Positions 25,905 through 52,352 of a stretch of DNA of 64,000 bases are shown piece after piece. The translations under genes and the position numbers were made by a program. The stretch's first letter is position 1. Each line of letters starts with the position of its first letter. The DNA lies in NCBI GenBank assembly GCA_005880915.1, contig VBIW01000038.1, forward strand, positions 62,001 to 126,000, in the 5' to 3' direction. The notes beneath the pieces are model-generated. The model had not been told where the DNA came from and made no database searches. It was given only the letters and a program-made list of their open reading frames with translations. This stretch comes from Chloroflexota bacterium (GTDB lineage Bacteria; Chloroflexota; Dormibacteria; Dormibacterales; Dormibacteraceae).

Positions 25905-26893
25905 TTTTCTACAGGCTCCAACCAGGTCATCATCGAGCGCAGGTCTCGCCCGACCTTTTCGATTTGGTGATCCGCGTCTTTGCGCCGCATGGCTAGGAAT
26001 CCCTCTCGACCGTTTGAGTTTTCATCCAGCCAGCGCTCGGCGAAGGTGCCGTCCTGGATCTCGCGCAACACCTGCCGCATCTGCTGGCGCACGTGGTCGT
26101 CGATGACGCGAGGACCGGAGACGTAGTCGCCGAACTCAGCGGTGTCGGAGACCGAATAGCGCATGAATCCGAGGCCGCCGCGGTACATCAGGTCGACGAT
26201 CAGCTTCAGCTCGTGCAGCACCTCGAAGTACGCAAGCTCGGGCTGATAACCCGCTTCGACCAGCGTCTCGAAACCGGTCTTGACCAGCGACGCAACTCCT
26301 CCACAGAGGACCGCTTGCTCGCCGAACAGGTCAGTCTCGGTCTCTTCCTTGAATGTGGTCTCGAGCACGCCTGCGCGACCGGCGCCAAGCGCTCGCGCGT
26401 ACGCGAGGGCTCGCTTCCACGCGTGACCTGTCGCGTCCTGGTGCACGGCGATCAAAGCGGGCACGCCCTGCCCTGCGACGTAGGTGCTGCGCAGGAGGTG
26501 GCCCGGACCCTTGGGCGCGATCATCGCCACGTCGATGTCCTGGTTGGGCTTGATCTGGGCGAAGTTGATTGAGAAGCCGTGCGCGAACATCAGCATCGAA
26601 CGGGGCTGAAGGTGGGCCTCGATCGACTCGCGGAACAGCTTGCCCTGGCCGGCGTCGGGCGTGAGCACCATCACGACGGATGCCTCTGAGACCGCCTCGG
26701 GCACGGGGACCGCGCGGAGGCCGTCGGCCTCGACACGCTCGATCGACTTGCTGCCGGGATAAAGACCGACCCGGACGTCTTCGCCGCTGTCGTGCAGGTT
26801 CAACGCATGCGCGCGGCCCTGGCTTCCGTACCCGATGACCGCGACGGGTTCGCCCAGGCTCGGCGGACAGTCGTCGTCGTAATGGATCTTCAT
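25901..26893 (-). CDS. ilvC: Ketol-acid reductoisomerase
   Basis: A 330-residue class I enzyme. It has the Rossmann motif [19 protein letters not shown] with a following GLYPGSKS loop for NADP(H), then [13 protein letters not shown] and the metal-binding helical domain with [17 protein letters not shown]. It isomerises and reduces acetolactate and acetohydroxybutyrate. It is coupled to ilvN upstream and leuA downstream by ATGA overlaps. Confidence 0.97.
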
Positions 26894-27399
26894 GCGGTTC
26901 TCCTCATCACGACGGGGCCGGAACGAACCACGTCGACAATCCCGTGCCGGGCCAGCTCGTCGACGAAACCGGTGACCTCGTCCGAGCCGCCGGAGAACTC
27001 GACGGTCGTGCCGTCAGGGCCGGTCGAGAGCACCTTCGCGCCTCGCTCGATGAGCGCCTGGACTTCCGCGGCCGCGACAGTGGCCACAACAAGCTCGCGG
27101 TTGTGCAGGTCATCGCCGGTCATGTCCTCGACCTCGAGCACCTCGACCAGCCGCTCGAGCTGCTTGCGCACCTGGTCCGCCTCGGCGTGCCCGTGGTCGA
27201 TTTCCAGCGTGATGCGCGAACGCCCGGGCTGACGGCTCGGACCGATCGAGATGCCGCGGACGTGAAAGCCGCGGCGGCGAAGGACGCCGGCGACCTTGGT
27301 CAGCGTGTTCTGCCCATCCTCAACCAGCAGCGAGAGAACCCGAATCCGAGCCTGAGGAGTGGGTGCTGAAACAGGCGGTTTGGGCTTGATCTCAAGCAT
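26890..27399 (-). CDS. ilvN: Acetolactate synthase small (regulatory) subunit
   Basis: A 169-residue protein. The N-terminal ACT domain (about 20-95; [23 protein letters not shown] is its first strand and helix, residues ~18-40) binds valine in relatives. The C-terminal half is the usual ALS_ss_C region. It confers valine feedback on IlvB. The ATG has GGAGG 9 nt upstream; that same stretch once also encoded the end of ilvB, as the duplicated junctions show. It is separated from ilvB by a 336-bp repeat array. Confidence 0.93.
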
Positions 27400-27631
27400 A
27401 TTCGGGAGCCTCCAACATCAGGTCCTCCCCATTCATGGGGAGATGTCGGGCGGAGCCCGACGGAGGGCCTGGAACGAATTTGAAAAGCGGGTCCTCCCCA
27501 TTCATGGGGAGGTGTCGGGCGAAGCCCGACGGAGGGGCTGGTTCGAATTTGAAAAGCGGCTCCTCCCCATTCATGGGGAGGTGTCGGGCGAAGCCCGACG
27601 GAGGGGCTGGTTCCAATTTGATCTCACGCAT
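27392..27631 (-). pseudogene. Repeat-derived frame that starts like ilvN and ends like ilvB
   Basis: A 79-residue frame on the minus strand. It begins MREIKLEPAPPSG (compare ilv[14 protein letters not shown]) with the same GGAGG site, continues through three repeats as PPSGFARHLPMNGE-type units, and ends EAPEYA-stop, the same last six residues as IlvB. It is what one expects when an overlapping ilvB/ilvN junction is tandemly duplicated with the element. It may be translated between ilvB and ilvN, preserving coupling, but no function of its own is evident. Confidence 0.6.
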
Positions 27632-27735
27632 ATTCCGGAGCCTCCCGGAACTTCCCTTCCCCGCTTGCAGGGGAAGGTGACCCAGCCCGCGACGCGGGCT
27701 CGGTCGGATGGGGGCGCTCAATGGGGCACGAACCC
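27400..27735 (+). repeat. Family I tandem repeat array inside the ilvB-ilvN junction
   Basis: Three units of about 70-75 bp: CCTCCCCATTCATGGGGAGG, GTCGGGCGAAGCCCGAC, GGAGGGGC, then a spacer with GAATTTGAAAAGCGG. A CCCCGCTTGCAGGGG variant follows near 27658. Copies of the gene junction (GGAGCCTCC and GCATATTC on the + strand) lie at both edges (27397-27413 and 27737-27755) and in the middle (27629-27646). Hairpin 2 is GGGC-GAA-GCCC here versus GGCGC-GAA-GCGCC elsewhere. Confidence 0.85.
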
Positions 27736-29421
27736 TTACGCATATTCCGGAGCCTCCCGGAACTCATTCAGCCCCTTGCCAAGCGGAACGATCGGATACA
27801 CATTCGCCTCGGGGTCGATGCGAAAGTCGATCAGGAACGGGCCTTTCGTCCGCTCCGCCGCGTCGAAAGAGGGAGCAATGTCCTCGAACTTCTCGACCCG
27901 CAGCGCCGGCAGCCCATAAGCCTCGGCGAGCTTCACGAAGTCCGGCATGTGCGTCAGGTCGACCTGCGAGCGGACACCGCCATAGAAGTCATCCTGGAAC
28001 TGGCGGACCATGCCGAGCGAGAAGTTGTTGAGCAGCACGATCTTCACGTCGAGCTGGTGCTCGACGGCGACCGAGAGCTCCTGCGCGGTCATCACGAACC
28101 CACCCTCGCCCGCCACGCACCACACAGGCAGGTCCGGCCGGGCGAACTTGGCGCCCAGAGCTGCGGGCAGGGCGAAGCCCATCGTGCCCGAGCCACCGGA
28201 GTTTATGAAGAGGCCGGGCCGGTCGTAGTTCCACCACAGCGCGGCCCAGATCTGGTTCTGGCCTACGTCGGCGACGATGATCGCCTCGCTCTCTGCACGC
28301 TTGTACATGTCGATCAGCACGTCCTGCGGCTGGAGCTTGCCGTTCGAGTGCTTGTAGCGCAGGGGGTGCTCCTCCCGCCAGGCGTCGATCTGGGCGAGCC
28401 ACTTGCCCCGGTCCTCCTGGACCCGGTCGACATGGGGCAGCATCGCCTCGAGCGCGAGCCTGGCGTCCGCGACCAGCTCGATGTGCGGGCGCACGTTCTT
28501 TCCCATCTCGGACTCGTCGATGTCGACGTGGATGAAGGTCTTGACGTTGGGCGCGAACTCGGAGAGCTTGGCCGTGACGCGGTCGTCGACTCGCATGCCG
28601 ACCATCATCAGAACGTCCGCGTTCTGGACCGCCTTCAGGCACCAGCCCGTGCCCATGAACCCTGTCATGTGGAGCGAGAGCGGGTGCTTGACCGGGAACG
28701 CGCCGATCCCGAGCAGCGTCGTACCGACCGGCGTGGCGGCAGCCTCGGCCAGCTGCATCAGCTCGCGCTCGCCATGGCTGAGCAGCACCCCGTGGCCGGC
28801 GAGGATCACCGGGCGCTCGGCCCTCGCCAGCGCGTGCGCGGCCTGTCGCGCCCCGTCGAGGTTGACGTGTCCGTTCAACTTGTAGCCCGGCAGATCCAGG
28901 TATTCGGTGTTGATCCGGTCCGCGTCGGCCTGCTGGACGTCCTTGCAGATGTCGATCAGCACGGGGCCCGGACGCCCGGTGGTTGCGATGTGGAACGCCT
29001 CGTGGATGACGCGGGGCAGCTGGTCGATCTTCGTGACCAGGTAGCTGTGCTTGGTCACGGAGCTGGTCGCGCCGATGACGTCCGACTCCTGGAAGGCATC
29101 GCGTCCGACCTGCGTGCTGTTGACCTGCCCAGTGATCGCGATCATCGGCACCGAGTCCATGTATGCGGTGCAGAGCCCGGTGACCAGGTTCAGCGCGCCC
29201 GGGCCCGAGGTGGCGAACACGACGCCAGGCTTGCCGCACGCGCGGGCGTACCCGTCTGCCATGTGGGCCGCGCCCTGCTCGTGTCGGACCAGGATGTGCT
29301 TCAGCTTCGGGTGCTCGGGGAGGTGCTGGTAGATCGGCAGGTTGGCGCCGCCCGGGTAGCCGAAGATGTATTCGACACCTTCGCGCTCCAGCGCCTCCAG
29401 CACCATGTCTGCTCCGGTCAA
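27736..29421 (-). CDS. ilvB: Acetolactate synthase large (catalytic) subunit
   Basis: A 561-residue TPP enzyme. It has the N-terminal FGYPGGANLP and RHEQGAAHMADGYAR (the Glu that activates TPP), the central FAD-associated domain, and the C-terminal VAGEGGFVMTAQEL...LLNN, where the usual GDG reads GEG. It makes acetolactate and acetohydroxybutyrate. TTG start with AGGAG 9 nt upstream. It is preceded by an attenuator and a leucine-rich leader peptide. The last codons (EAPEYA) occur again twice in the downstream repeat array. Confidence 0.96.
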   Translation of the reverse strand: MTGADMVLEALEREGVEYIFGYPGGANLPIYQHLPEHPKLKHILVRHEQGAAHMADGYARACGKPGVVFATSGPGALNLVTGLCTAYMDSVPMIAITGQVNSTQVGRDAFQESDVIGATSSVTKHSYLVTKIDQLPRVIHEAFHIATTGRPGPVLIDICKDVQQADADRINTEYLDLPGYKLNGHVNLDGARQAAHALARAERPVILAGHGVLLSHGERELMQLAEAAATPVGTTLLGIGAFPVKHPLSLHMTGFMGTGWCLKAVQNADVLMMVGMRVDDRVTAKLSEFAPNVKTFIHVDIDESEMGKNVRPHIELVADARLALEAMLPHVDRVQEDRGKWLAQIDAWREEHPLRYKHSNGKLQPQDVLIDMYKRAESEAIIVADVGQNQIWAALWWNYDRPGLFINSGGSGTMGFALPAALGAKFARPDLPVWCVAGEGGFVMTAQELSVAVEHQLDVKIVLLNNFSLGMVRQFQDDFYGGVRSQVDLTHMPDFVKLAEAYGLPALRVEKFEDIAPSFDAAERTKGPFLIDFRIDPEANVYPIVPLGKGLNEFREAPEYA

Positions 29422-33407: not shown

Positions 33408-34550
33408 CTAGCTTAGGGCGGACTCGAGGTCGGCGATGAGGTCGGCGACGTCCTCGACGCCTACCGACAGCCGGATCAGCCCATCGCCAACGCCAGAGCG
33501 CTGCCGGTCCGCGGCGGGGATCGAAGCGTGGGTCATGCGCGCCGGGTGCTCGGCCAGCGATTCGACCGCGCCGAGCGACTCGGCGAGGGCGAAGATCCTG
33601 AGCCGCTCCAGCGTGCGAAACGCGGTGGGCTCGTCCTTGACCTCGAAGCTCACCATGCCGCCGAACATGCGCATCTGCCGCGCCGCGACGGCGCGATTCG
33701 GGTGCGTGTCGAGGCCGGGATAGAAGACACGCGTGACCGCCTTGTTGCTACGCAGCGCGGTCGCGAGCTCCATCGCGTTCTCGCTCTGGCGTTCGACACG
33801 CAGGGCAAGCGTCTTCACTCCGCGGAGCAGCAGCCAGCAGTCGAACGGCGAAGGCACCGCGCCGACCGCGTTCTGGTGGAACCGCAGCTTCTGTTCCAGC
33901 TCCTCATTGCTGGTCATGAGTGCGCCGCCGACCACGTCGCTGTGGCCGCTGATGTATTTGGTCGAGCTGTGAACCACGACGTCGGCGCCAAGGTGCAGCG
34001 GCTGCTGCAGATAGGGCGTCGCGAACGTGTTGTCGACGCAGACCATCGCACCGTGGCTGTGCGCGACCTCGCTGACGGCGTCGATGTCGACGATTCGCAG
34101 CAGCGGGTTGGTCGGCGACTCGAGCCACACCATTCGTGTCTTGTCCGTCATCGACCGTTCCACTGCGTCGAGGTCGGCGGCGTCCACCGCGGTGAAGGTG
34201 ATGCCGTACCGCTTGAGCACCTTGTCGAAGAGACGGAACGTGCCTCCGTAGACATCCTCCATGTAGACGACGTGGTCGCCGGGATCGAGCAGCAGCATCA
34301 GCGTGGTCTCCGCGCCCAATCCAGATGAAAATGCCAGGCAGTGTCTCGCGTCTTCGAGCGCGGCGAGGCATTCCTCGAGCGCCTGCCGCGTCGGATTGCC
34401 CGACCGCCCGTATTCGAAACCCTTGTGCTTGCCCACACCCTGCTGGGCGAACGTCGTCGCCATATGTATCGGCTGGACCACAGCGCCGGTGGCCGGATCA
34501 GGCCCCTGACCGACATGCAGCGCGAGCGTCGAAAAACCCCAACGCTTCAC
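33408..34550 (-). CDS. metB: Cystathionine gamma-synthase/gamma-lyase family PLP enzyme
   Basis: A 380-residue Cys/Met-metabolism PLP enzyme from GTG 34550. It has HVGQGPDPATGAVVQPI, YGRSGNPTR, and the PLP lysine in HSSTKYISGHSDVVGG. It could be cystathionine gamma-synthase (MetB) or gamma-lyase (MctB/Cth). Next to cystathionine beta-synthase, the lyase role of reverse trans-sulfuration is at least as likely. The start codon lies within the last nucleotides of a family I element, and the frame stays open through the upstream repeats as copies of VKPTSPASGE, so the true N-terminus is uncertain. Confidence 0.85.
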   Translation of the reverse strand: MKRWGFSTLALHVGQGPDPATGAVVQPIHMATTFAQQGVGKHKGFEYGRSGNPTRQALEECLAALEDARHCLAFSSGLGAETTLMLLLDPGDHVVYMEDVYGGTFRLFDKVLKRYGITFTAVDAADLDAVERSMTDKTRMVWLESPTNPLLRIVDIDAVSEVAHSHGAMVCVDNTFATPYLQQPLHLGADVVVHSSTKYISGHSDVVGGALMTSNEELEQKLRFHQNAVGAVPSPFDCWLLLRGVKTLALRVERQSENAMELATALRSNKAVTRVFYPGLDTHPNRAVAARQMRMFGGMVSFEVKDEPTAFRTLERLRIFALAESLGAVESLAEHPARMTHASIPAADRQRSGVGDGLIRLSVGVEDVADLIADLESALS

Positions 34551-34853
34551 CTCCCCGCTCGCCGGGGAGGTCGGCTTCACCTCCCCGCTCGCCGCGGAGA
34601 CCGGCTTCACCTCCCCGCTCGCCGGGGAGGTCGGCGGCGCAGCCGCCGGGTGGGGCCGTTCATCTTTGCTCAACCGCTTCACCTCCCCGCTGGCCGGGGA
34701 GGATGGTTTCACCTCCCCGCTCGCCGGGGAGGTCGGCGGCGCAGCCGCCGGGTGGGGACGCTCATCTTTGCTCAACCGCTCACCTCCCCGCTCGCCGGGG
34801 GCCGCGCCCTGCGGGCACGGAGGGCGTGGGGACGTTCATCCTTGCTCAACCGC
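34548..34853 (+). repeat. Family I tandem array between the cystathionine genes
   Basis: Three full elements (CCTCCCCGCTCGCCGGGGAGG, GGCGGCGCAGCCGCC, GGGTGGGG, the last one diverged) and three half-elements with only the first hairpin. The sequence TCATCTTTGCTCAACCGCT follows full elements at about 34660 and 34762, and again (one change) at 34836, where it runs into the cbs stop (34854-34856). The cbs 3' flank is thus part of the repeated unit of about 100 bp. Confidence 0.85.
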
Positions 34854-36218
34854 TCACCCCTGGCCGCGATGCGCGACGAATTCGAGCAGGTCGGCACGAG
34901 TGATGACCGCGATCGGCTTGTCGCCCTCGACCACGAGCACCGCCTGCTCGCCGCGGAGCAGAGGCTCGAACGCGTCGTCGAGCGAGGAGTCGACGGCGAC
35001 CTGGCTCATCGGCGCGTCCATGGCCGCGGACACGGCGGTGGTCACCACGGCGGGGTCGCGATAGACGCGGTCGAGCAGGGAGCGCTCCTGGAGCGTGCCG
35101 ACGACGCCGTGGCCGTTCGAGTCCTCGACCACGGGCAGCTGCGAGATCCCATAGCGCTGCATCAGGTCGATCGCCTCACCCACTGACTTTCCAGCCTCGA
35201 CGGTGACGAGCTGCGGCAGCCCCTTGGGATGGGACGCGAGGACCTCGCGGATGCGCACAGCCCCGAGCCGCGCGAGGTAGCCGTTCTGGCGCATCCACTC
35301 GTCGTTGAAAAACTTGCTCAGGTAGTTGCGCCCCGTGTCCGGGAACAGGACCACGATCACCTCATCCGGACCTCGGTCCTGCGCGACGATCAACGCCGCC
35401 TGAAGCGCGAGGCCGGATGAACCGCCGACGAGGATGCCCTCCTCGCGCGCCAACCGGCGCGCGGCCGTGAACGACTGCTTGTCGGTGACCTGGACGATCT
35501 GGTCCACGACGCTGATGTCCATCGTCCCCGGCATGAAGTCCTCGCCGACCCCTTCCACTTTGTACGGCGCGATGGGACCGGAATAGAGGGAGCCCTCAGG
35601 GTCGGCGCCGACGATGTGCACCGACGGCTTGCGCTCCTTCAGGTATCTGGCGACGCCGGTGATCGTCCCGCCCGTGCCCATACCGGCGACGAACACGTCG
35701 ATGCGTCCCTCGGTCTGCTCCCAGATCTCCGGGCCGGTCGTCTGGTAATGCGCCTCGGGGTTGCGCGGGTTGAAGTACTGGTTTGGCTGAAAGGCGCCGG
35801 GGATCTCACGCGCCAGGCGGTCGGCCACCGAGTAGTAGGACTGCGGCGATGAGCGTTCGACGTTGGTCGGGCAGATCACGACGTCGGCCCCATACGCCTT
35901 GAGCAGGCTGATCTTCTCCGCCGACATCTTGTCGGGCATGACGAAAACCATCTTGTAGCCCTTGATCGCAGCCACCATTGCCAGGCCGTGTCCGGTGTTC
36001 CCTGAGGTGGGCTCGATGATGGTGCCGCCTGGTCGCAGCTGCCCCGTCCGCTCGGCCTCCTCGACCATCGTCAGCCCGATGCGGTCCTTGACGCTGCCGC
36101 CGGGGTTGAGCTCCTCGAGCTTGGCCAGGATGGTGGGCCTGATTCCTGCTGTGACCTTGTGCAGGCGCACCAATGGGGTGTTCCCGACGAGGTCGAGAAT
36201 GCTCTCGGAATATTTCAG
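34854..36218 (-). CDS. cbs: Cystathionine beta-synthase with C-terminal CBS domain pair
   Basis: A 454-residue PLP enzyme. The catalytic part has LVGNTPLVRLHKV, NPGGSVKDRIG (PLP Lys) and EPTSGNTGHGLA. From about residue 335 two CBS domains follow (VREVLASHPKG-type start; GISQLPVVED), the regulatory module known to bind adenosyl ligands in relatives. It condenses serine or a derivative with homocysteine. The conserved N-terminus (KYSESILDLVGNTP) is encoded upstream of the first standard start; the codon in the Met position is CTG at 36216-36218, with AAGGGG about 10 nt before it. CTG initiation is inferred. Confidence 0.88.
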   Translation of the reverse strand: MKYSESILDLVGNTPLVRLHKVTAGIRPTILAKLEELNPGGSVKDRIGLTMVEEAERTGQLRPGGTIIEPTSGNTGHGLAMVAAIKGYKMVFVMPDKMSAEKISLLKAYGADVVICPTNVERSSPQSYYSVADRLAREIPGAFQPNQYFNPRNPEAHYQTTGPEIWEQTEGRIDVFVAGMGTGGTITGVARYLKERKPSVHIVGADPEGSLYSGPIAPYKVEGVGEDFMPGTMDISVVDQIVQVTDKQSFTAARRLAREEGILVGGSSGLALQAALIVAQDRGPDEVIVVLFPDTGRNYLSKFFNDEWMRQNGYLARLGAVRIREVLASHPKGLPQLVTVEAGKSVGEAIDLMQRYGISQLPVVEDSNGHGVVGTLQERSLLDRVYRDPAVVTTAVSAAMDAPMSQVAVDSSLDDAFEPLLRGEQAVLVVEGDKPIAVITRADLLEFVAHRGQG

Positions 36219-36261
36219 CTCACCGCACCCCTTCGGGCGATTCTAGCCCTGACATCACATC

Positions 36262-36345
36262 GATTCCGCCCCGTTGGCGCCACCGGACCTGAATCTGGGC
36301 GCTCGAAGGATGCCGCTGAATACAACGAGGCGAAATCGGGACGTT
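36262..36345 (-). repeat. Family II/III palindromic repeat
   Basis: On the minus strand this reads GATTTCGCCTCGTTGTATTCAGCGG, then a spacer, then CCGGTGGCGCCAACGGGG. It combines a TGTATTCAG-type (family III) module with a GGCGCC-type (family II) module, which links the two groups. It lies between the cbs start and the ctaG-like stop. Confidence 0.7.
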
Positions 36346-36349
36346 CGTC

Positions 36350-37138
36350 TCAGTGCGAAAGGACGTGGGCCCGGTCGGCCCGGTGCTCCGCGCCGAACCA
36401 GCGGAAGAAGATCACCATCGCGGCCACGGCCAGCGTGACCTTGCCGGCGACCATGAGCACGGCCCCAGCGATGGTCTGGTCGATGAGGGCGGTGAAGCCC
36501 GCGATCAGGCGCGGCGCATGCGTGTAGTACTCATAGAAGGGGACGCGCGAGAAGATCAGCGCGAGGGCTACGCCGTCCTGCGGCAGAGTCGCGAGAAGCA
36601 TGTAGACGAGCTTGGCGCCTGCTGACATCTCCCATCGAGCATGGCCCGAGGTCGCGTCGACGATCGGCCAGTAGAGAACCACCCCGGCGGCGATGAACGT
36701 CAGGTGCTCGATCACGTGCAGCCCCTCGTTGTGGAGCGTGGCGTCGTAAAGCGGCGGCAGGTGCCAGACCACCATGACGACGCCCGCTATCACCTGCGCG
36801 GGTATCGGCTCTGTGCTCGCGCGGACGCCCGGGACGCGAACCAGCCGCGAGACCATGCCGGGTGAAAGACCGAGCAGGAGGAGCGGCGGCGCGACAAAGG
36901 CGAGCAGGACGTGCTGGAGCATGTGGACGCTGTCCAGGTAAGAGTCGCTTAGCGGGTCAATGGGCGTCTCGAGCGCGACCCAGAGAGTGAACAGCCCCGC
37001 GAGAAAGTAGAGGGTGTGCTTGCGCTCGGCGTCGGCGGCCCCACTCGCCAGCCAGGCGTGACCGAAGTACAGCAGGACCAGGCCCGCGTACACGGTCAGG
37101 TCGAATGGCCACATCGTCAGGGGCCACCACGAAATCAC
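36350..37138 (-). CDS. CtaG-family (caa3 type) cytochrome oxidase assembly membrane protein
   Basis: A 262-residue protein with about seven helices and the family features DSVHMLQHVLLAFVAPPLLLLG, GVVMVVWHLPPLYD and HVIEHLTFIAAGVVLYWPI. Conserved His residues in the helices fit a copper or haem role. Family members assist Cu insertion into aa3/caa3 oxidases such as the one at 5-9 kb. GTG start. It is the last gene of a minus-strand operon with VKOR, DUF929 and cupredoxin genes. Confidence 0.88.
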   Translation of the reverse strand: MISWWPLTMWPFDLTVYAGLVLLYFGHAWLASGAADAERKHTLYFLAGLFTLWVALETPIDPLSDSYLDSVHMLQHVLLAFVAPPLLLLGLSPGMVSRLVRVPGVRASTEPIPAQVIAGVVMVVWHLPPLYDATLHNEGLHVIEHLTFIAAGVVLYWPIVDATSGHARWEMSAGAKLVYMLLATLPQDGVALALIFSRVPFYEYYTHAPRLIAGFTALIDQTIAGAVLMVAGKVTLAVAAMVIFFRWFGAEHRADRAHVLSH

Positions 37139-43965: not shown

Positions 43966-43992
43966 GACGCCGCCGCACCTCGCGGCGGCGTC
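43966..43992 (+). other. Stable stem-loop after the binding-protein gene
   Basis: GACGCCGCCGC pairs with GCGGCGGCGTC (11 bp, 5-nt loop) starting 12 nt after the stop. There is no T tract. Such hairpins between a binding-protein gene and its ATPase/permease genes typically protect the upstream mRNA and raise the binding-protein level. Confidence 0.6.
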
Positions 43993-44010
43993 ACCTATGC
44001 CGAAGGGGCC

Positions 44011-44199
44011 GTCCCCAGACTCAACAGCTAGGACTCCAGGTAATCCTCTATGTCAAATGGGGGTCCCGCCGGGGAATCCCGATCCCCGTGCCAAGTGGAG
44101 CTGAAGCCCGGATTCATTCCGGGCGTCCCCAGATTGAACAGTCAGGACTCCAGATAATCCTCTATGTCAAAGGGGGGTCCAGCGGGGGGATCCCGATCC
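44011..44199 (+). repeat. Direct repeat of 75 nt (two copies) between ABC genes
   Basis: Copies at 44011-44085 and 44125-44199, offset 114 nt, share GTCCCCAGA, GGACTCCAG, TAATCCTCTATGTCAAA and GGGGTCC, with about ten differences. A hairpin GCCCGGA-TTCAT-TCCGGGC (44106-44124) sits just before the second copy. The element is unlike repeat families I to III. Confidence 0.75.
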
Positions 44200-44233
44200 T
44201 CCCGCGCCTTTGTCGCCGATAATGCAAGGTGAG

Positions 44234-49805: not shown

Positions 49806-50219
49806 GTGAACCGCTCTTCGCATGAGATCCTTGGAAGCGCGCGCACCATCGCGGTGGTCGGCGCGTCGCGTGATCCCAGCAAGGCCGGGGGCTCGGTCCC
49901 CGAAGGCCTGCAGAAGCGCGGATTCCGCATCATCCCTATCAATCCCTACGCCGACACTCTTTTCGGCGAGCGCGTGTACCGCTCACTGCTCGAGGTGCCG
50001 GAGCAGATCGACCTGGTCGACGTTTTCCGACCCGCGGCCGACGCCCCCGAGATCGCGCGCCAGGCTGTAGCTGTGGGCGCCAGGGCGCTGTGGCTACAGG
50101 AGGACATCCGGTCCGCCGAAGCACGCCGCATCGCCGAGTCGGCGGGGATGGAATTCGTCGAAGACGAGTGCACCGCCGTGGTCGCATCGCTCTATCGACT
50201 GCGAACGTCAGCCGCCTAA
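49806..50219 (+). CDS. CoA-binding domain protein (YccU type)
   Basis: A 137-residue Rossmann-like protein: RTIAVVGASRDPSKAGGSVPEGL, then GFRIIPINPYADTLFGERVYRSL and ALWLQEDIRSAEA. Members bind CoA and their role is unknown. GTG start, 38 nt after the previous gene, followed 16 nt later by the CYTH gene. Confidence 0.9.
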   Translation: MNRSSHEILGSARTIAVVGASRDPSKAGGSVPEGLQKRGFRIIPINPYADTLFGERVYRSLLEVPEQIDLVDVFRPAADAPEIARQAVAVGARALWLQEDIRSAEARRIAESAGMEFVEDECTAVVASLYRLRTSAA

Positions 50220-50235: not shown

Positions 50236-50853
50236 GTGGCGCCTCGCCGACCACGCCATCTTCGGGACCGCAGCATCGAGTCCGAGCTCAAGTTTCGGGT
50301 TGCCGGTCCGCGCGACCACGCGACCCTTCGCGCGGTGCTGCGCAAGCGTGGCGCCAAGCTTGTCGGCCGATACAGGGAAGAGAACTTCCGCTTCAACGGC
50401 CCGGGCAAATCGACGCGCAACACGACCCTGCGCCTGCGCGTGCTCAACGGCGGACCTCGGGGAGTGCTGACGGTGAAAGGCCCGGCGACGTTCGAAGCCG
50501 GGGTCAAGATCCGAGAGGAGACGGAGGTCGAGCTCTCAGACGTACACGCAACGCTCGACCTCCTCCAGCAGCTGAGCTTTCGCGTCGGCTGGACCTACCC
50601 GAAGAATCGCACGATGTACACGCTCGATGGGATCGTGGTCACCCTCGACGTTCTCGAGTTCGGGTGGTTCGTCGAGGTCGAGGGCGCGGCCACCGCGCTG
50701 CCTGAGATGGCGCGCAGCCTGGGCCTCGACCCGGCCAACGCCCTACGCGACAGCTACTCGGTGATGGCGCGCAAGCACATGAAAGCGAAACGCCCGACCA
50801 AATCGCCCCCCACGCCGGTCACCCTGCCCGAGGAGGCCGCAGCGCAGGCGTAA
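50236..50853 (+). CDS. CYTH domain protein (class IV adenylate cyclase/ThTPase-like)
   Basis: A 205-residue protein. ESELKFRV (E15, E17, K19) is the ExExK motif of the CYTH triphosphate tunnel fold. Further charged strands follow (TTLRLRVLNGG, VLTVKGP, KIREETEVEL). The length and the YPKNRTMYTL segment resemble CyaB-type class IV proteins. It may hydrolyse or cyclise a triphosphate substrate. The last ~30 residues are a basic/Pro tail. Confidence 0.85.
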   Translation: MAPRRPRHLRDRSIESELKFRVAGPRDHATLRAVLRKRGAKLVGRYREENFRFNGPGKSTRNTTLRLRVLNGGPRGVLTVKGPATFEAGVKIREETEVELSDVHATLDLLQQLSFRVGWTYPKNRTMYTLDGIVVTLDVLEFGWFVEVEGAATALPEMARSLGLDPANALRDSYSVMARKHMKAKRPTKSPPTPVTLPEEAAAQA

Positions 50854-50862
50854 AGCTCGACA

Positions 50863-50940
50863 CGCACCGTTGGATACAACGAGGCGGAATTCGAGCGCTC
50901 GATACGCCCCGCTGGATGCACCGAGGCGAAATCCAGTCCT
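50863..50940 (-). repeat. Family III palindromic repeat, - orientation
   Basis: Read on the minus strand: GATTTCGCCTCGGTGCATCC and AGCGGGGCGTATCG, then ATTCCGCCTCGTTGTATCCA ending ACGG. It aligns over its whole length with the + strand copy at 46366. Stem changes are paired: CGTTG/CAACG here against CGCTG/CAGCG there. Confidence 0.75.
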
Positions 50941-50945
50941 GGCGT

Positions 50946-52352
50946 CTACTCGCTCCGCGCCGGTGCTGTACTTGCTCCGTCGGTCCGCGCCGGGCCCACC
51001 CACACGGTCTGAATGTTCGTGAACTCCTTGATCCCGTACTCCGACAGCTCGCGTCCGTAGCCCGACCGCTTCGCACCGCCGAAAGGCAGCCTTGCGTCCG
51101 ACGCCACCATGCCGTTGATGAAGACCAGGCCCGCCTCGACGCGCTCCGCGAGCTGCTTCGCGCGCTCGACATCGGACGTCCAGATGTTGGAGCCGAGCCC
51201 GAAGTCGGTGTCGTTGGCGACGCGCAGCGCGTCCTCCGCATCCTTCACACGGATCACAGCGGCCACCGGTCCGAACGTCTCCTCGTGGTAGGCCGGCATG
51301 CCGGGTCTCACGTTGGCCAGCACCGTCGGCTCGAAGTAGTAGCCGTCACCGGGCATCCTTTTGCCGCCGGTCAGCGCCCGCGCGCCAAGCCGGAGCGATT
51401 CGTTGACCTGCCGCTCGAGCTCGTCGACCAGGTCTTGGCGAGCCAGCGGGCCGACCTGGTTCGCCCGGTCCATCGGGTTGCCCACCTTGAGAGCCGCCAC
51501 GGCGTTGGTGAACCGCTGCTCGAACTCGTCGGCCACCGGCTCCTCGACGATGAAACGCTTGGCGGCAATGCAGCTCTGGCCGTTGTTCTGGTTGCGGGCG
51601 CGGCAGGCGACCGTGGCCGCCTGGTTCAGGTCGGCGTCGGCCAGGACGATGAACGGGTCAGAGCCGCCGAGCTCGAGCACGGTCTTCTTCAACGCCCGGC
51701 CCGCCGCCTCCGCGACGAGCGACCCGGCCTTCTCCGAGCCGGTCAGCGTCACACCGGCGACTCGATGGTCGGAGATGATCCGCTCCACCGCCGCCGAGCC
51801 GACCATCAGCGTCTGGAACACGCCCTCGGGCACGCCGGCCTCGCGGAAGACCTCCTCGATCGCCAGCGCCGACTGGGGCACGTTCGAGGAGTGCTTGAGC
51901 AGCATCACGTTGCCGGCCGTCAGCGCAGGCAGGCCTGCGCGAAAGGCTTGCCAGAACGGGAAATTCCAGGGCATCACAGCGAGGATCACGCCCAGCGGCT
52001 GGAACCGGACATAGCTCTCGGAGGCGGTGCTCTCGATGGACTCTTCGGCCAGCAGCCGCGCACCGTTCTCGGCAAACCAGTTGGCCGTCCACGCGCACTT
52101 TTCGATCTCGGCCTCGGCCTCGACGATGGGCTTGCCCATCTCCGAGGTGAGCAGCGCGGCGTAGCGCGACCTGTCAGCCCGAAGGACGCCGGCGACCGTG
52201 CGCATGAGTGTGGTGCGCATGCCCGGCCCGGCGTCGCGCCAGGGGTGCCGCGCGGTCCAGGCGCGGCTCAGGGCTGCGTCCAGCGCCGCCTCCTCCGCCT
52301 CTGGGAACGACGCCAGCTCCCGGCCCGTGGCCGGGTCGATGGATCTCAGCAC
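50946..52352 (-). CDS. Aldehyde dehydrogenase, succinate-semialdehyde dehydrogenase-like
   Basis: A 468-residue ALDH-fold enzyme. It has VMPWNFPFWQAFR, VTLTGSEKAG, the general-base Glu in LELGGSDPF, and the catalytic Cys in NNGQSCIAAKRF. The C-terminal FGGAKRSGYGRELSEYGI is typical. Length and the GQSCIAAKR motif fit the GabD/Sad NAD(P)-dependent subgroup; the substrate is not fixed. Its start is 27 bp from the divergent glgE start. Confidence 0.9.
   Translation of the reverse strand: MLRSIDPATGRELASFPEAEEAALDAALSRAWTARHPWRDAGPGMRTTLMRTVAGVLRADRSRYAALLTSEMGKPIVEAEAEIEKCAWTANWFAENGARLLAEESIESTASESYVRFQPLGVILAVMPWNFPFWQAFRAGLPALTAGNVMLLKHSSNVPQSALAIEEVFREAGVPEGVFQTLMVGSAAVERIISDHRVAGVTLTGSEKAGSLVAEAAGRALKKTVLELGGSDPFIVLADADLNQAATVACRARNQNNGQSCIAAKRFIVEEPVADEFEQRFTNAVAALKVGNPMDRANQVGPLARQDLVDELERQVNESLRLGARALTGGKRMPGDGYYFEPTVLANVRPGMPAYHEETFGPVAAVIRVKDAEDALRVANDTDFGLGSNIWTSDVERAKQLAERVEAGLVFINGMVASDARLPFGGAKRSGYGRELSEYGIKEFTNIQTVWVGPARTDGASTAPARSE

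Follow-up and report, generated by a model that had tools for sequence, protein, structure and literature searches.

How can a repeat array come to lie between two genes whose ends overlap without either gene being broken? This question is raised by the acetolactate synthase genes ilvB and ilvN of a Chloroflexota bacterium (GCA_005880915.1), found in the stretch of 64,000 nt that we call the window (contig VBIW01000038.1, positions 62,001 to 126,000 of the forward strand). A preliminary description of this DNA had proposed that an element arrived at the ilvB/ilvN junction and that about 30 bp of its target were duplicated with it. The window belongs to a draft genome of 228 contigs (G000; 96% complete, with 8.6% estimated contamination), and its closest relative is a sister genome from a separate assembly (G012), whose ilvN is 91% identical. 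All nine named records that match ilvN are MAGs, seven labeled Chloroflexi bacterium and two Candidatus Dormiibacterota bacterium, and from the labels of these records the habitat of the bacterium is probably soil. Among 61 genomes, 43 had an ilvN match and loci were obtained from 30. Our junction counts cover 22 of these loci, namely G000, G012 and 20 relatives, with eight loci from more distant genera (L022 and L024-L030) left out.

On the minus strand, ilvB (27736..29421; large subunit, with the Pfam TPP_enzyme N, M and C domains) and ilvN (26890..27399; small subunit, with ACT_AHAS_ss and ALS_ss_C) are both open reading frames that remain intact at the junction, as had been claimed. The 336 nt between them consist of copies of their own junction and of two different hairpin elements. 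A 20-nt core, GGAGGCTCC[G/C]GAATATGC[G/T]T, is present on this strand at 27757-27738, 27645-27626 and 27413-27394 and at no other place in the window, even at up to three mismatches (mean of 0.00 in 100 shuffles), which agrees to within a few nucleotides with the three positions given previously. Copy A (27735..27764, minus) holds the end of ilvB, a ribosome-site-like GGAGG and the ATG of a first small ORF, sORF1. Its frame EAPEYA-stop is the end of ilvB, and the stop is now TAA, versus TGA in G012 and the 20 relatives. Copy B (27618..27652, minus) is a complete junction of the ancestral type, with both an ilvB-like stop and an ilvN-like start, just as the preliminary description had read the middle copy: one frame ends KFREAPEYA-TGA, and the other opens ATG CGT GAG ATC AAA, or MREIK, which can be compared with MLEIK in ilvN. 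Copy C (27386..27413, minus) carries a ribosome-site-like GGAGG and the ilvN start. A 28-nt form of the core, running on to GAGATCAA, is found in B and C only. The spacer between A and B is element E1 (27653..27734, minus), with hairpins GAGCCCGCGTCGCGGGCT and CCTTCCCC..GGGGAAGG, and it differs from the array E2 between B and C (27414..27620, minus), which is built of three 69-bp units that each contain two hairpins (GTCGGGC..GCCCGAC and CCTCCCC..GGGGAGG). The predicted RNA fold of the junction region surpasses those of all 100 shuffles (z -4.4). The Rfam search returned three matches, all of them implausible and under the gathering scores.

None of the 20 relatives has junction copies, and in every one of them the stop of ilvB and the start of ilvN overlap (8 nt in 14 cases, 4 nt in five and 1 nt in one). 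This count is pattern-based and takes the start codon nearest to the ilvB stop. For G001 (L004) the rule gave an inner ATG, and the 8-nt overlap and 63-nt linker were taken from the locus alignment; for G012 it gave a wrong upstream ATG, and the values of the ORF analysis were used instead. The ancestral-type overlap reads ATGCTTGA in G010, G001, G002, G006 and G008 and ATGCCTGA in several other relatives. These empty sites bear out the proposal that ilvB and ilvN once overlapped by a few nucleotides, and a wide, unrelated gap between the two genes is absent from the 20 relatives compared.

The order in the sister genome is ilvB, junction, one element block, junction, ilvN, and the window genome has the same arrangement plus an extra element block between A and B. 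On this comparison there are two insertions, the first common to both genomes and the second, E1, present in the window genome only. A single event is ruled out, because A-B and B-C differ both in their element and in their divergence, and because G012 has only one of them. In the alignment, the ilvB-side letters AGTTCCGGGAGG are kept in A, B and the first G012 junction (G012_J1), and C and the second (G012_J2) are unlike them just before GGAGG. Hence, the first duplication, of which C is the right-hand copy, spans at least GGAGG..ATCAA, or 28 bp, with two mismatches between B and C, and may include about 10 bp more. In the second, which extends from AGTTCC to GTGAG, A and B are identical at 29 of 30 bp. 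The proposed target duplication of about 30 bp therefore stands in its length (at least 28 bp and 30 bp), but it belongs to two insertions and not to one. The observation is real and well supported, since relatives display both the empty site and an intermediate state; that site, the copies, the two nested events, the open frames and the kept overlaps are all read directly from the sequences. The separateness of the A-B and B-C events, the open frames that overlap end to end between the genes, and the elements inside ilvN of relatives are additions to the preliminary description.

The best explanation, which we consider probable, is that an element inserted twice, each time with a junction duplication of about 30 bp. 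A dispersed hairpin element, for which no protein of its own was seen, would have entered the 8-nt stop/start overlap, and each insertion would have been accompanied by a target copy of about 30 bp (at least 28 bp in the first event and 30 bp in the second). The copied stretch takes in the ribosome site, the ATG of ilvN and the stop of ilvB, which is all that the two genes require at this place, so ilvB on the left would not lose its end, nor ilvN on the right its start. Between two copies, the DNA would open with an ilvN-like ATG and close with an ilvB-like stop, and would thus become a small ORF that inherits the overlap with each neighbor. We infer that the copying occurred during insertion, for example through fill-in of a staggered-nick break with capture of an element copy, that coupling would be held by selection, and that insertions breaking a gene would be lost. 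That the duplication arose at insertion, whatever the enzyme, we hold to be likely to about the same degree as the explanation as a whole.

The resulting frames form an unbroken chain in the window genome, from ilvB through ORFs of 39 and 79 codons to ilvN, in which every overlap is 8 nt and GGAGG precedes each ATG. The shorter, sORF1 (27624..27743, minus), runs from the ATG of A to the TGA of B and overlaps ilvB and sORF2, and sORF2 (27392..27631, minus) runs from the ATG of B to the TGA of C and overlaps ilvN; neither gave a Pfam match. A single 44-codon frame bridges the two junction copies of G012. The ORFs are open, and the distance from ATG to ATG is 1 mod 3 in three of three cases (two in G000 and one in G012). 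When insertion was simulated with 256 pieces of real elements, frame and overlap were kept in 20% per event, and a chance relay in both events would accordingly occur in about 4% on this simulation, which is suggestive only: a hint of selection and no proof. The small ORFs may pass ribosomes from ilvB on to ilvN.

Elements of this kind are also found within ilvN itself. In eight of the 20 relatives, the linker that leads from the start codon to the ACT core contains a clear in-frame hairpin element, as identified by pattern, and further cases are G035, with an imperfect hairpin recognized by eye, and G001, with a degenerate pattern match. The linker measures 9-54 nt in ten element-free relatives versus 57-102 nt in the nine with an element (including G035), and 63 nt in G001. 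The ilvB tree places G010 and G002 as close sisters, yet they differ in this element, which implies a recent gain or loss. We regard the ilvB/ilvN junction as an insertion hot spot, and the data fit either a linker that is among the few places tolerant of insertion or a site that attracts it. Elsewhere in the window (34540-34855, minus) an array lies between two genes that we take from their proteins to be cysteine-synthase-like and cystathionine-gamma-synthase-like. The downstream ORF is open through this array (..LSKDERPHPAAAPPTSPASGEVK.. twice), whose elements may form an in-frame N-terminal extension of that ORF, and G001 has a short gap at the same site. At L104:15600-15880, array repeats resemble an in-frame expansion within a longer coding region.

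The hairpins belong to an abundant family. Perfect CCTCCCC-loop-GGGGAGG hairpins number 150 in the window genome, against one for a control pattern, and the oriented hairpin form with at most one mismatch occurs 92 times in G000, 64 times in G012 and 54 times in G008, with controls at zero. Duplication of flanking sequence is found at a minority of their loci. In 384 kb of G000, a low-copy duplication spans the element at 3 of 50 dispersed-element loci versus 4 of 500 random places, and stricter masking left two hairpin clusters out of 65 with a duplication. Across eight genomes, seven of which have clusters, 14 of 154 hairpin clusters carry a local low-copy duplication, two of the 14 being the ilvB/ilvN site itself (in the window and in G012). 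Comparison of left with right flanks at 144 loci gave seven at a score of 11 or more and three above 11 (0.24 expected from 1182 mismatched pairs), the other four scoring exactly 11, and 137 of the 144 fell below 11, such that most element loci are without a flanking duplication. The seven include the G012 copy of the ilvB/ilvN site and not the window's own, probably because the search flank ended inside A, and also L154, where the duplication does not abut its element. Target duplication as a constant feature of the element was therefore rejected, since it concerns a minority of loci in every run. Flanking duplications vary from 11 to 41 bp, with no fixed target duplication length. The expectation of the preliminary description that the element could be sought at other junctions was thus rewarded in part: copies of gene ends do recur, but flanking duplication is seen at only 7 of 144 loci and its length is not constant.

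Several individual loci illustrate these copies. At L098:3383-3519, where a gene has its stop codon, a single element is bordered on both sides by identical copies of a 41-bp sequence, and this insertion looks recent. L126 has a perfect 20-bp duplication that includes a stop codon, with the flank present three times and the element twice, and L146 has an 11-bp flanking duplication. In the window, an array at 8.85 kb copies the end of a gene that, judged by its protein, is presumably cytochrome-oxidase-like, and another at 23.6 kb copies the stop region of a gene that is presumably pheA-like. At 17.1 kb, the start of an S49 peptidase gene is copied three times in an array. The same locus in G012 has one element and one start, indicating that in the window a tandem duplication affected the element and the gene start as one unit. 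Tandem duplication of element and flank fits this locus and probably L150, but was rejected as the only mechanism because it does not fit the order junction, element, junction at ilvB/ilvN. Hence, two processes seem to be at work, namely copying of the target at insertion and tandem copying of an element with a gene end, and ilvB/ilvN is the clearest of several junction-copying cases.

Another case lies between two genes that we take from their proteins to be recO and glyS (L115:16370-16720 in G000). This interval contains elements, a decayed second glyS start and the overlapping frames recO-TGATG-sORF-TTGA-sORF-ATGA-glyS, although 4-nt overlaps in such a chain easily arise by chance from TGA stops. 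Both genes were matched near each other in five relatives (G008, G001, G011, G005 and G014). They abut in G001 (TGATG) and G008 (TAATG), whereas the contrary cases are G011, with an element and a longer gap, G005, with a wide gap of other sequence between the genes, and G014, with a gap of about 900 bases. As separate observations, an eight-hairpin array with a period of about 116 bp at L118:535-1232 in G000 is a candidate variable-number locus. Moreover, repeat-like or low-homology insertions of differing sequence types occur in the window at 43992-44213, 36250-36372 and 50845-50971, each absent from at least one relative, and the one at 36250 has a GTTGGCGCC-like palindrome inside. L073 (G012) and L079 (G001) share a related insertion of about 180-195 bp, opposite window position 50218, that the window genome lacks.

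The double junction can also be imagined to have arisen in another order. In G008 and G012 the same element stands at the same offset of 24 nt from the ATG, but in G008 it lies within ilvN and a second junction is absent. The first event could therefore have had two steps. An element would first have settled in frame within the ilvN start, as in G008 and in line with the in-frame elements in the linkers of at least 8 of the 20 relatives. Allele recombination or partial duplication would afterwards have added a start of ilvN without an element on the downstream side, the old start being left as a small ORF. We consider this route unlikely: the ilvB tree groups G008 with G007 and gives this pair no firm placement relative to G000 and G012, our reading of the alignment reveals no clear homology at the join between element end and junction, and the second event (A-E1-B) is left unexplained, with no such intermediate seen for it. 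Somewhat less likely again is that slippage came before the elements, giving a harmless tandem duplication of the junction between whose copies elements inserted later. The S49 peptidase locus, with its tandem duplication of element and gene start, lends this idea some plausibility, but an element-free tandem copy of the junction occurs in 0 of 20 relatives, and slippage would be needed two times, with an element entering precisely between the copies on both occasions.

Since the array is repetitive and the G000 draft comprises 228 contigs, with contamination estimated at 8.6%, an artefact of assembly might also be considered. This is hardly credible, because the separate G012 assembly has the first event, no two of the copies A, B and C are identical and the frames are open. 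A classical MITE, moved by a transposase and producing a fixed target duplication, concerns the enzyme involved and is partly compatible with the best explanation. Its arms would be the roughly inverted repeats CCCTCC..GGGGAGG, and the copy number is high (150 perfect hairpins against one for the control). However, target duplications are not fixed in length and none is detected at most loci, and we judge this reading very improbable, its parent-transposase search having covered Y1_Tnp and RVT_1. Neither Y1_Tnp (PF01797, RAYT) nor RVT_1 (PF00078) has a match at E 0.001 in the 96% complete G000 draft, with positive controls in 5 of 14 and 3 of 14 genomes, respectively, and mobilization by RAYT or by a reverse transcriptase was set aside for this reason. 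G000 has three Ku-domain matches, which, alongside the absence of Y1_Tnp and RVT_1 matches, suits a break-repair route. The variable duplication lengths likewise appear to suit staggered-break fill-in with capture of an element better than a transposase that makes a fixed cut. Within the preferred explanation of two insertions with junction duplication, such a break-repair route is a tentative proposal that may well be wrong.

Similar behavior is known from other short repeats, which we compare by description. Mycobacterial interspersed repetitive units (MIRUs), reportedly the subject of Supply et al. in 1997, resemble the elements here in being dispersed short repeats that often occur in tandem between genes (here 150 hairpins and a 69-bp array of three units). 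They resemble them also in inserting at a start codon or a stop/start overlap with an internal ORF that overlaps its neighbors, as do sORF1, sORF2 and the recO-glyS chain. In the relevant passage of one review, MIRUs insert at start codons with an internal ORF coupled to the gene at -4 nt and with little harm to expression (PMC12548453). This passage carries the same idea, and the earlier statement that no described element splits overlapping genes in such a way consequently fails. The coupling differs, since the overlaps at ilvB/ilvN are 8 nt and 4-nt overlaps are found here only in the recO-glyS chain. The phylum is also another one, and here a double hairpin is involved and about 30 bp of junction is copied. 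What goes beyond the MIRU descriptions is the copying of a whole 8-nt overlap with its ribosome site in two ordered steps. The rnc-fpg1 gap of the M. tuberculosis complex consists of repeats and measures 279-358 bp, against 1-54 bp in the other mycobacteria tabulated (PMC2734929).

The elements within ilvN recall Rickettsia palindromic elements (RPEs), which are about 150 bp long, lie in frame in protein genes and are translated, according to the part of PMC10969869 that treats them; that part contains no junction-duplicating case. The likeness is that at least 8 of the 20 relatives have an open in-frame palindrome at the N-terminus of IlvN, as read from the sequence, and the difference is that RPEs are about 150 bp and come from Rickettsia. 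REP elements with tyrosine transposases are palindromes near or overlapping gene ends, some of which give stop codons and some of which are inside ORFs, as described in a section of PMC3733652. Short palindromes near or over gene ends, and sometimes inside ORFs, are likewise seen here, but without a Y1_Tnp match in G000 and with a larger unit of two hairpins.

Among close relatives, the ilvB/ilvN locus exists without an insertion, with one and with two, and it offers a clean natural record of the way in which a repeat can enter an overlapping gene pair and leave neither gene broken. The sparing of operons in the manner of MIRUs is apparently not limited to mycobacteria, as this case suggests. 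A bolder and doubtful proposal, which we rate slightly below the break-repair route at this site, is that small hairpin elements spread through Dormibacterota-like bacteria by transposase-free break repair, copying a variable 11-41 bp of target, and that those landing on coupled overlaps make translated relay ORFs. If this were true, an element would spread through operons without uncoupling them, and would seed small proteins or in-frame extensions as it did so. The ilvB/ilvN case could also serve to test how N-terminal extensions and small ORFs come about, and whether translational coupling is under active maintenance.
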